DNA from: Clostridiales bacterium
GTDB taxonomy: Bacteria; Bacillota; Clostridia; Christensenellales; Aristaeellaceae
Reading direction: 5' to 3'
Assembly: GCA_015056325.1 (NCBI GenBank)
Contig: SVGL01000005.1
Coordinates: forward strand, 62,001 to 126,000
DNA: 64,000 nt
Positions 40,168-44,831 of this stretch are shown one piece after another (the first letter of the stretch is position 1; the number at the start of each line of letters is the position of its first letter). The notes beneath the pieces were generated by a model, which saw only the letters and a list, made by a program, of their open reading frames with translations, searched no databases and was not told where the DNA came from. Position numbers and translations under genes: made by a program.

Positions 40168-40178
40168 AATTAGGCTGC

Positions 40179-40220
40179 GCGCCCGTAGCTCAGTTGGATA
40201 GAGTGTCAGACTCCGACTCT
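40179..40220 (+). pseudogene. 5' half of a split tRNA-Arg(CCG) gene
   Basis: GCGCCCG acceptor arm, D arm and 5' anticodon stem TCAGA, loop CTCCGAC, then TCT. After 40220 the sequence no longer pairs. The missing 3' half is at 44201-44242. The shared 10 bp CTCCGACTCT (40211-40220 and 44201-44210) mark the break. Confidence 0.8.
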
Positions 40221-40264
40221 CACGGCGTTCGCAGTCCCAGCGGTGGGAATACCGCAAGCCATTA

Positions 40265-40338
40265 GCGCCCGTAGCTCAGTTGGATAGAGTGTTGGACTCC
40301 GACTCCAAAGGTCGCTGGTTCGAATCCAGTCGGGCGTA
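40265..40338 (+). tRNA. tRNA-Arg (anticodon CCG)
   Basis: A complete 74-nt cloverleaf: acceptor GCGCCCG/CGGGCGT (first pair G-U), D arm GCTC/GAGT, anticodon stem TTGGA/TCCAA with loop CTCCGAC, T arm GCTGG-TTCGAAT-CCAGT, discriminator A; CCA not encoded. It reads CGG arginine codons. It differs from the split copy in the anticodon stem, so it is a separate gene, lying 44 bp inside the left end of the island. Confidence 0.95.
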
Positions 40339-40341
40339 CTG

Positions 40342-40525: not shown

Positions 40526-40770
40526 CAGGATGTTATGCTTCCTGCAAGCAGCTTTGCTAAGGAGTTCAGTAAGTCCGGAGACTCCTTCAGTTGCGCCAGC
40601 AGATGCTCCGCACTGACCGGCTGCGCAGAAGGCACTGAAACCTTGCGCAGATCAGGATTAGAGTAGAATTCAGAGTCGAATTTCTGTGCATTGAGTTTGC
40701 GATCCTCGTCCAGAATGTGAGCATATACCTTGGTGATCATTTCGATTTCAGAGTGACCAGTATCACCTTG
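40525..40770 (-). pseudogene. Tyrosine recombinase (integrase) C-terminal remnant
   Basis: The frame reads QGDTGHSEIEMITKVYAHILDEDRKLNAQKF and ends after about 70 more residues. This is the last part of a phage/ICE-type tyrosine recombinase: GH-S with the catalytic histidine and K-V-Y-A-H with the catalytic tyrosine. Everything upstream (the Arg and Lys of the active site, and the DNA-binding domain) is missing. Translation cannot start normally; the ATG at 40740 lies inside the homology. Upstream it joins directly, out of frame, to a Y-family polymerase fragment. It is oriented towards the tRNA attachment site, as integrases of such islands often are. Confidence 0.8.
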
Positions 40771-41036
40771 GGTACCAGTTTGGAATACTTGAGGTACAGC
40801 TCATAATGTGGTGGCACACAAATCAGCCCTGGACAGGCTTGTTTCGCCTGCCAGTTGGCTGCACCAGTCTTTACGCCCATGCGTTTTGCCGGATATGATG
40901 CGGTCAATACAATTCCATGTCGGTCTTCAGTACTTCCGCACACTGCGATGGCCTTACCCCGCAAAGAGGGATTTTCATTCATCTCAACAGAAGCATAAAA
41001 GCAATTGAGGTCGCTATGCAAAATGATCTCTGCCAT
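40737..41036 (-). pseudogene. Truncated Y-family DNA polymerase (UmuC/DinB-like)
   Basis: The first about 85 residues of a translesion polymerase: AEIILHSDLNCFYASVEMNE with the metal-binding aspartate, RGIVLT-type segment (HGIVLTASYPAKRMGVKTG) and CPPHYELYLKYSKL (here CVPPHYELYLKYSKL). Full proteins have about 400 residues. At about 40775 the reading frame passes into the integrase remnant in the wrong frame and stops. GGAGG precedes the ATG at 41036 by 8 nt and an SOS box lies just upstream (41055), so the stub may still be SOS-expressed, but the palm is incomplete and it cannot be an active polymerase. Confidence 0.85.
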
Positions 41037-41054
41037 AAATGATACCTCCACAAA

Positions 41055-41066
41055 GAACATTTGTTC
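41055..41066. promoter_or_regulatory. LexA-type SOS box 1
   Basis: GAACATTTGTTC, a perfect match to the Gram-positive core GAAC-N4-GTTC, 18 bp upstream of the polymerase stub. Confidence 0.85.
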
Positions 41067-41739: not shown

Positions 41740-41830
41740 TTCTAACGAGTTTATTTGCAAATAGTTATGAATATTTGATTAATAATCCCCGAAGAAGTTG
41801 ACTTTACACAATTCGATTATTCATACATTT

Positions 41831-41855
41831 GGCCATCCGGCATTGCCGGGTGGCC
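41831..41855. terminator. Hairpin before RHS cassette 1
   Basis: GGCCATCCGGC-ATT-GCCGGGTGGCC, an 11-bp stem then a T-rich tail. A related hairpin (GGCCA...TGGCC) followed by TTTT precedes RHS cassette 2 at about 43340-43366. Confidence 0.65.
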
Positions 41856-41874
41856 ACTTCTTTTGCTTGCTATT

Positions 41875-42831
41875 AAGACCAACTACGCGCTACATGGTAA
41901 GAACGTCGTGCACATGACCACGGGCAATGACAACCTGCACTTCTTCTATGATGCGCAGAACTAGCCTGCGGTTGTCGCTTTCAACGGGACCCCGTACAGC
42001 TATGTGAAGAACCTGCAGGGCGACTTTGTGGCCATTCTTGACAGCAACGGCACCGCTGTGGTACAGTATAAGTACGATGCGTGGGGTAAGCCGATTAGTA
42101 AGACTGGTAGCATGGCCAGCACGCTGGGCACGGTGCAGCCTTTCCGCTAACGTGGATATGTGTACGACGAAGAGACCGGGCTGTATTACCTCAGAAGTAG
42201 GTATTTTGATTCTAATTCCTGCAGGTTCCTCAATGTCGATTCTATCTTGACAACAGACCTTCTTCTTTCCAACCAACAAGCGTACTGCGCGAACAACGCC
42301 GTGATGCATTCAGATCACAATGGACGCAATATTTTCGAAGATATCTGGAATCTGTTTTGCGATACTGTAAACGCAGCACAGGAAATAGAACAGTATAATA
42401 CACAGCTCAGTGCCGCACAAATCCTTTCTGCTACTGCAGGAACTGTAAATCCCCTTCGAAATGCCGCAGATTATACAAAACATCATTTCATTCAATGGAT
42501 TTGCTCAGGCATAGGAACTGCTATTGCAAGTATGTATATGAAAGCTGGGACTGAGTTAGGCTATCCACTAGAGGGAAAAATGCTTGCAACAATATCTATT
42601 GCTGGAGCTGTGCAGTTCGGTCTCGCTCTGCAAAATGCATTTAATGTAAATGTGTTGGGGGAACCGTCTTCTTCCGAAGATGAATTAACGCAAGACACTA
42701 TTGATGGATTACTTGATCATTATCTGAACATGACAGTGGTCATTTTCGAGAACATGTTTCAGAGCATGCCAACATTGACCGACTATTACCTTCAACAACA
42801 TCCTGAGAATTACGTTATCCCAATTGCTTGA
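41875..42831 (+). pseudogene. Silent RHS-core/C-terminal cassette 1 with toxin-like tail
   Basis: One reading frame codes the end of an RHS/wall-associated (WapA-like) protein: GKNVVHMTTGNDNLHFFYDAQN, NLQGDFVAILDSNGTAVV, YDAWGKPISKTG, then the core ending RGYVYDEETGLYYLRSRYF and RFLNVDSILTT. About 175 residues of unique tail follow (from about AYCANNAVMHSDHNG, ending NYVIPIA) with a hydrophobic stretch; such tails are usually toxin domains. Two in-frame stops (TAG 41962, TAA 42148) interrupt the core; cassette 2 has AAG and TAT at these places. There is no start codon and no shell domain upstream, so it is a displaced module. The region from 42160 to 42831 is open. Confidence 0.75.
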
Positions 42832-42845
42832 AAGGGGTTATTGTA

Positions 42846-43283
42846 TTGAATTCTGTCTTGTTTGCTTTTTTTATCCTCATACTCTATGCTATTGCTCATT
42901 ACATCGCAAAAATAAGAACATCCAAACAGTTTACAAAGGGAATAATCCAGCTGCTAGAACAATCACATACCGGACGGATAAAATCATTGGACTGGACTTT
43001 TCGGGTTGATGAGCAAGTAAAGCATGATTTGATATATCCTCTCTCTTTAGAGCAAGTCATTCAAATCAGGCAGTGTAAAGATCCTCTAGAAAAATCTTTT
43101 GTCTATCAGATTGCCAAGTTTGAAATGAGCCAACAAATTGCAGTAGCAAAAGTAAATGTTAGTATAGATTTTGACGATCCACTTAGTCAGACCCGTATAC
43201 ACCTATCCAATATACCGATAACTATTCACTGTCGTCTTGTTTCAAAAGAAGGATGGGTCGTTTGGAAAGTATGTCATTCATAA
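42846..43283 (+). CDS. Possible immunity protein of RHS cassette 1
   Basis: A 145-residue protein starting at TTG 42846 (GAAAGGGG 8 nt upstream); the ORF-track start at 42828 overlaps the toxin-like tail. It has one N-terminal membrane helix (SVLFAFFILILYAIAHYIA) and a soluble C-terminal part with alternating strands (IAVAKVNVSIDFDD, IHLSNIPITIHCRLV). Position immediately after an RHS C-terminal module is where immunity genes lie, and membrane-anchored immunity proteins are known. I do not recognise the family. Base composition is AT-rich like the rest of the island. Confidence 0.55.
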   Translation: MNSVLFAFFILILYAIAHYIAKIRTSKQFTKGIIQLLEQSHTGRIKSLDWTFRVDEQVKHDLIYPLSLEQVIQIRQCKDPLEKSFVYQIAKFEMSQQIAVAKVNVSIDFDDPLSQTRIHLSNIPITIHCRLVSKEGWVVWKVCHS

Positions 43284-43380
43284 TTTGACGAACATAGTAT
43301 GGTGGCAAGACAAGTATCTTTAACCCTTATTCTTCTGCTGGCCATCCAGTCACACGCCGAGTGGCCTTTTCTCTTGTCTG

Positions 43381-43704
43381 CACTTCTTCTACGATGCCAG
43401 CAATAAGCCTGCCATCGTTGAGTTCAATGGCACCAAGTATGCCTATGTGCACAACCTGCAAGGCGATATCGTTGCAATTCTAGACAGTGATGGCACTGCC
43501 GTTGTCAACTATGTGTATGATGCTTGGGGCCATCCCATCAACAAGACTGGCGGCATGGCTAACACCTTGGGCGCTGTGCAGCCCTTCCGGTATCGTGGCT
43601 ATGTTTACGATGAAGAGACGGGGCTGTATTATCTCAGAAGCCGCTACTACAATGAAGTACAGTGTCGCTTTGCTAATGCTGATGCAATAGTAACCAGAAA
43701 TTAA
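43381..43704 (+). pseudogene. Silent RHS-core cassette 2, truncated tail
   Basis: HFFYDASNKPAIVEFNGTKYAYVHNLQGD continues without stops through YDAWGHPINKTGG and RGYVYDEETGLYYLRSRYY, then ends nearly at once (RFANADAIVTRN, stop). It is closely similar to cassette 1 in the core but diverges completely after the conserved tyrosine-rich motif, which is where RHS toxin tips are exchanged. Upstream lies a GGCCA/TGGCC hairpin like that before cassette 1. No toxin or immunity gene follows. Confidence 0.75.
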
Positions 43705-43796: not shown

Positions 43797-44108
43797 CTAT
43801 ATCAGAGGGTCTATTTACAAACTGATGTTGATTACATCAAGTTCAAAACGGGAATGCAAACCAACGCAAAATACAATCCCAGTCGTGAACTCGAAATCAT
43901 TGGACATTCTCTAGATATCACAGACAAAGACATTATCGTGGATATGTTTCAATTAGCAACTACGATAAAAATATACTGTCATAACCATAGCGCAATTGGT
44001 TCCTATATCCGAAACCTGATAGCCATCTTTGGAAAAAACAGGTTCGATTCGATTCGCGAAAGCAAACAACTCGAATTTGTTCTACTCAACAATATGGTGT
44101 GGAATTAA
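43797..44108 (+). pseudogene. AbiH-like abortive-infection protein, C-terminal remnant
   Basis: The frame reads YQRVYLQTDVDYIKF then ELEIIGHSLDITDKDIIVDMF and ends with SYIRNLIAIFGKNRFDSIR and a short tail. The G-H-S-L-D-x-T-D-K-D-I motif is the best known signature of AbiH-family phage-defence proteins, where it lies near the C-terminus. The N-terminal about 200 residues are absent; the upstream DNA joins the end of RHS cassette 2. The ATG at 43854 is internal. The gene is therefore a fragment and not an active defence protein. Confidence 0.65.
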
Positions 44109-44200: not shown

Positions 44201-44242
44201 CTCCGACTCTGAAGGTCGCTGGTTCGAATCCAGTCGGGCGTA
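44201..44242 (+). pseudogene. 3' half of the split tRNA-Arg(CCG) gene
   Basis: CTCCGAC loop, TCTGA stem, AGGTC, T arm GCTGG-TTCGAAT-CCAGT, CGGGCGT and A. Its TCTGA pairs perfectly with TCAGA of the half at 40179-40220; it does not pair with the intact tRNA's TTGGA. Confidence 0.8.
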
Positions 44243-44322
44243 CGTGGAAATCCCCCGGAATCTTGCGAGGTTCCGGGGAATTGTTTTTTTGGAGGATGCA
44301 GGGAATGTGTATGAGGTACATG
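44209..44322 (+). repeat. tRNA-tail direct repeat, copy A
   Basis: A 114-bp unit: tRNA-Arg 3' end, a hairpin terminator (ATCCCCCGGAA...TTCCGGGGAA) and a tail ending TGTATGAGGTACATG. An imperfect copy lies 508 bp further at 44717-44831. Confidence 0.75.
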
Positions 44323-44716: not shown

Positions 44717-44831
44717 CTGAAGGTCGCTGGTTCGAATCCAGTCGGGCGTACATGAAAATCCCCCGGAATCTTCGCGATTCTGGGGGATTGGTTTGTTTTG
44801 GGAGCAGGCGCTGATATGTATGAGGTACATG
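44717..44831 (+). repeat. tRNA-tail direct repeat, copy B
   Basis: Starts with CTGAAGGTCGCTGG, continues through the tRNA 3' end (to 44750), then a hairpin ATCCCCCGGAATC...GATTCTGGGGGAT and TATGAGGTACATG. It is a second tRNA-Arg 3' half without a 5' half. From here to 44979 no gene is seen. Confidence 0.75.

Follow-up and report, generated by a model that had tools for sequence, protein, structure and literature searches.

Tandem RHS toxin-tip modules beside a tRNA-Arg gene: the probable relic of a contact-toxin locus in a clostridial genome

The window analysed here is a stretch of 64,000 nucleotides from a member of the Aristaeellaceae (contig SVGL01000005.1, positions 62,001 to 126,000). 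Positions 41830-43704 of the window carry the 3' ends of two RHS genes in tandem, and translation of 41875-42834 and 43312-43704 shows both core ends in the same orientation. The modules and the elements around them are the following.

40265-40339, + strand: intact tRNA-Arg (CCG), upstream border of the probable island (ARAGORN)
40737-41060, - strand: truncated Y-family DNA polymerase gene, N-terminal part (IMS domain), island cargo (Pfam PF00817, E 2e-22)
41830-41856, + strand: hairpin before cassette 1, most simply a terminator, with a 12 bp stem and a 3 nt loop; a copy lies behind the full-length RHS locus
41877-42206, + strand: cassette 1, RHS core 3' end (translation; tblastn, 73% amino acid identity to the resident full-length core)
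42207-42831, + strand: cassette 1 tip, a conserved linker to about 42324 followed by a variable putative toxin domain of no known family
42846-43283, + strand: probable immunity gene of cassette 1 (from its position), TTG start with AAAGGGG upstream, one N-terminal transmembrane helix
43339-43366, + strand: decayed hairpin of the same putative terminator type, between cassettes 1 and 2
43378-43650, + strand: cassette 2, RHS core 3' end without internal stop (tblastn, 75% amino acid identity to the resident core)
43651-43704, + strand: residual tail of cassette 2, 17 codons after RSRYY and then a stop; tip lost
44201-44243, + strand: direct repeat of the tRNA-Arg 3' end, 41 of 43 bases (local alignment)
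44720-44751, + strand: second direct repeat of the tRNA-Arg 3' end, 32 bases exact (local alignment)

The order within a module is hairpin, core end, tip, and downstream gene. The open parts of the two RHS core ends (41877-42206 and 43378-43650) score 43.9 and 47.0 bits against TIGR03696 (Rhs_assc_core), for which the curated cut-off is 32.5 bits. Several elements proposed in the initial annotation are borne out by the translation and by feature prediction. These are the GGCC hairpins at the start of the modules (the second of them decayed), the two stop codons in core 1 (TAG at 41962-41964 and TAA at 42148-42150, as read in one assembly), the loss of the tail from cassette 2, and the membrane-anchored product of the gene downstream of the cassette 1 tail, which has one strong predicted N-terminal transmembrane segment (hydropathy maximum 2.75). 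From 42160, a possible GTG start, a short frame is open, and this could be taken to mean that these are independent small genes merely resembling RHS ends, but such a reading is hardly credible in view of the core identity, the Rhs_assc_core scores, the stops, and the missing starts, and is already contradicted by the core match. Beyond cassette 2, an 84-residue open frame (43854-44108) resembles by eye an AbiH-type C-terminus (IIGHSLDITDKDI), with no HMM support in four libraries.

The genome (3.06 Mb in 63 contigs, 85% complete and 5% contaminated) contains one DUF6531 gene; given this incompleteness, the assembly may lack a shell that is nearer or more similar. This gene is a 2062-residue open frame on another contig (G000:C41), with CBM96/DNRLRE, DUF6531, and RHS-repeat domains. 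The combination of DUF6531 and RHS/YD repeats with an RHS-associated core, a variable tip, and a downstream immunity candidate is that of an RHS/WapA polymorphic toxin. Its core end aligns with both cassettes: DNA identity is 77% across 315 bases for cassette 1 and 72% across 257 bases for cassette 2. The lack of an RHS gene with a matching core, which the initial annotation named together with a non-toxic tail as grounds for abandoning its reading, is thus not what the genome shows. On the 3' side of the resident tip lies a 180-residue gene with two predicted transmembrane segments, followed by a hairpin as in the window and by a core stub (L007:12211-12327), an arrangement of core, tip, immunity gene, hairpin, and core stub that the window layout matches. 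By contig positions, the cassettes and the shell are at least about 84 kb apart. A tblastn search with the full-length protein found no shell fragment in the window or in two 20-kb flanks, where only the two cassettes match, and the cassettes do lie far from the shell gene, as had been proposed. Upstream of the resident gene we note by eye a large serine-recombinase-like gene (L007:1145-2809) and a single-strand-binding-protein-like gene (L007:4930-5328), whose presence suggests a mobile element as the location of the shell.

DNA similarity between the modules stops just after the motif LYYLRSRYF/Y, where the G+C content also drops. In a profile of ten core ends of the genus, taken in 15-base bins, mean pairwise DNA identity is about 0.67-0.86 before the motif, 0.63 in the last 15 bases of the motif, and 0.33 right after it; beyond the divergence point, a short RFxNAD block is conserved. 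At the protein level, the RHS-associated core extends about 38 residues past the motif (RFLNVDS...AYCANN...DHNG) and ends 55 residues into the frame that opens at 42160. The proposal that the modules diverge exactly after YYLRSRYF/Y therefore holds for DNA, with a fall from about 0.8 to 0.33, but not for protein. Similarly, the tail described for cassette 1 is present, but its variable part comprises 168 residues (42325-42828) and does not begin at 42235. The G+C content falls from 0.53 in core 1 to 0.41 in tip 1 and 0.36 in the gene behind it, and is 0.51 again in core 2. An array in the relative G012 alternates likewise, the values overall being 0.51-0.54 in cores and 0.36-0.49 in tips and partners.

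The common core, the identical order of the parts, and the open tip and immunity frames would be compatible with a live silent store, in which cassettes 1 and 2 recombine with the resident RHS gene and change its toxin, as has been demonstrated for a Salmonella orphan (PMC3967940). In that proven case, however, the homology is 95% over 522 bp, whereas the resident core is 76% identical to cassette 1 over 273 bases, with a longest exact match of 20 bp, and 70% identical to cassette 2 over 273 bases, with a longest exact match of 23 bp. For neither cassette is the resident gene a closer match than other species are, and the long near-identical core that characterizes a silent store is absent. 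Given also the stops in core 1, the tipless cassette 2, and the location of cassettes and resident gene on different contigs, a live store is very unlikely, and the initial description of the locus as a stock of tips able to recombine into a full gene is not sustained. With its diverged cores, interrupted core 1, and tipless cassette 2, the locus is read here as debris.

The hairpin at 41830-41856 folds with -24.3 kcal/mol (z -4.6, no shuffle as good), and that at 43339-43366 with -9.9 kcal/mol (z -0.75). In a whole-genome search allowing up to two mismatches, the hairpin sequence is confined to the two RHS loci. Both in the window and behind the shell it follows a partner gene and precedes the next core, and it is also found at four of the five junctions in G012 and behind both units in G016. 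Among nine sequences, 3 of the 11 stem pairs show double changes with pairing kept, and a T-rich run follows the stem on its 3' side. In G158, a different GC-rich hairpin with TTTTT occupies the equivalent place. The hairpin is most simply interpreted as an intrinsic transcription terminator, since this accounts for its location, the double changes in the stem, the T-rich run, and the substitute hairpin of G158 alike.

It is very improbable that the hairpin is instead an attC-like recombination site and the modules cassettes mobilised by an integrase. One hairpin family does occupy nearly every junction in the genus and, in this genome, RHS loci only, and the hairpin-core junction CTGTRCCATTRGYAACCCGCT is near-identical in the resident locus, G012, and G016, which represent three species; this may be one inherited ancestral junction. 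Against a recombination site stand the T-rich run past the stem, the unrelated sequence of the G158 hairpin, and the variable core lengths, which are expected of homologous exchange, while no integrase was recognised in the island. An integron-like cassette array was rejected on the terminator-like character of the hairpin, its replacement in G158, and the lack of an integrase among the island frames. Under the terminator interpretation, the hairpin at 41830-41856 is presumed to mark the end of a lost upstream tip-immunity unit.

The modules probably lie in a decayed tRNA island, because they have tRNA-Arg(CCG) on one side and two direct copies of the 3' end of this tRNA on the other. The first repeat (44201-44243) is likely an att-site remnant closing an island of 3.9 kb, and the interval from the tRNA to the repeat contains the truncated Y-family polymerase gene, small frames, and the two cassettes. 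Direct repeats of the tRNA 3' end thus flank the cargo as in a tRNA island, and we call the island decayed because no integrase is recognised among its frames. Immediately upstream of the intact tRNA-Arg(CCG), positions 40172-40264 carry a degenerate second tRNA-Arg 5' half. In a congener with no detected shell gene (G010:C39), about 500 bases separate tRNA-Arg(CCG) from a decayed RHS core fragment upstream of it (L080:4711-5455). A general association of RHS fragments with tRNAs was not found (1 of 43 loci), and the fragment near the same tRNA in G010 is a lead only, other RHS loci being away from tRNAs.

RHS core ends are present in 6 of the 18 genomes of the genus, the present one included, and in 44 of 308 genomes of the family (E 1e-20). 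Two of the relatives contain long arrays. In G012 (contig C158), five core-tip-partner units stand in a row, and a stub of a sixth core comes after them; because the first unit extends beyond the contig edge, its shell is not visible. In G158 (contig C68), a full-length shell is followed by five core fragments, the last of which is a stub. The starts of the core fragments vary in these two arrays, and all fragments except the terminal stubs reach the motif, as expected under the displacement model of Jackson et al. (PMC2935791). Furthermore, contig C79 of G016 has an orphan tip and partner behind a core interrupted by a TAG; they share 45% and 59% identity, respectively, with the tip and partner attached to the full-length gene of G158, which belongs to another genus. 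This is direct evidence that such modules exist both attached and orphaned. A Pfam match was obtained for one of ten other tips scanned (a peptidoglycan-binding domain), and most of the downstream genes encode a predicted transmembrane or signal segment. A tree of the core ends gave no firm branch. Two observations on relatives may be added: a G012 tip (C158, L029:6661-7452) has an H...NC pattern that by eye resembles permuted NlpC/P60-like papain-fold enzymes, with no Pfam match, and G115 (C88, L068) carries two tandem RHS genes (core 1-1229 + 1189-1350, then 346-1350), the first with an apparent frame change near the core end.

Tip 1 and its partner are open reading frames, and neither matches a family in the libraries searched. 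We found no homologue of tip 1, attached or free, in other genomes: the search of 18 congeners, 308 family genomes, plasmids, viral contigs, genome_contigs, and solved structures returned none, and three matches among 396 genomes of the order (E 0.005-0.008, 16-17 bits) are not credible. For the partner, too, no homologue was detected. A 194-residue match to G016 C79 was discarded as due to the core part, the tip alone giving no match. Structure models computed from single sequences, with no alignment, are uninformative (mean pLDDT 38 and 42), the N-terminal helix being the sole confident part of the partner model. Tentatively, tip 1 and its partner may represent a new family of interbacterial toxin-immunity pairs, preserved as an orphan in the tRNA island, and would then be one of many uncatalogued tips traded among the RHS loci of the family, most with membrane- or signal-bearing partners. 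It is rather doubtful that the locus has been kept as an orphan immunity locus, the product of 42846-43283 protecting against siblings or neighbours with a matching tip. In favour of this, the gene has an open frame and a ribosome-binding-like AAAGGGG of its own, the tip is likewise open while the core has stops, and orphan immunity genes are described for Rhs effectors (PMC10539506), but the difference in stops between core 1 and the tip-partner region is not significant (P 0.07), and no homologue was found from which to gauge selection.

Taken together, the locus is best explained as a relic of an RHS/WapA-type contact-toxin locus, consisting of displaced and decaying RHS tips, to which we assign a probability of roughly 0.87. 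The core is homologous to that of a full-length gene in the same genome, and divergence sets in at the core end. The initial annotation had already regarded the modules as displaced tips, and the matching full-length gene, the arrays in relatives, and the tip that is attached in one genome and orphaned in another lend weight to this. In the G158 array, the modules lie downstream of a shell; in the window they do not, and the claim is therefore one of a relic of an array and not of an array in place. Each module would once have been the 3' end of a full-length gene, comprising core, tip, immunity gene, and terminator, with the hairpin terminating each toxin-immunity operon. A newer core-tip-immunity unit would enter by recombination in the core and push the older module downstream, a displacement that at the window locus we infer by analogy with the relatives. 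A piece of the array may later have parted from its shell, within or carried by the tRNA-Arg island. Decay since then would account for the two stops in core 1, the loss of tip 2, and the broken second hairpin, and anything still useful would be the partner gene, as an orphan immunity gene.

The modules are displaced RHS tips as described by Jackson et al. (2009) and not a new system. That study described dissociated or displaced rhs C-terminal tips in Enterobacteriaceae and modelled circular core-tip intermediates (PMC2935791). As in those loci, core fragments that vary in length stand in tandem, their tips and downstream genes differ from one to the next, premature stops interrupt some of them, and they derive from a full-length gene. 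In contrast, the enterobacterial cores are identical within a locus, whereas those of the present genome are 70-76% identical; the piece of array in the window is far from the shell, at a tRNA; and a conserved GGCC terminator hairpin closes the units of this genus. The window also resembles the rhs orphan toxin of Salmonella Typhimurium LT2 in being a tip-immunity fragment without start and export parts, but in Salmonella the orphan immediately follows the main gene and recombines with it (PMC3967940), through homology that the window lacks. The architecture of Bacillus subtilis WapA and other Gram-positive RHS toxins, a DUF6531 and RHS-repeat shell with a variable tip and then an immunity gene, is likewise shared, and solo or standalone toxin cassettes near such genes were reported by Zhang et al. 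(2012, PMC3482391); unlike those toxins, tip 1 and its partner have no family match in the libraries searched.

Most of the window locus is debris, of a known type that toxin-tip swapping leaves in genomes. Displaced RHS tip arrays are best described in enterobacteria, and our analysis extends them to a clostridial family in which they have been little described; it includes one tip-immunity pair that is attached in one genus and orphaned in another. The uncatalogued tips and their membrane-anchored partners also form a set that can be tested.
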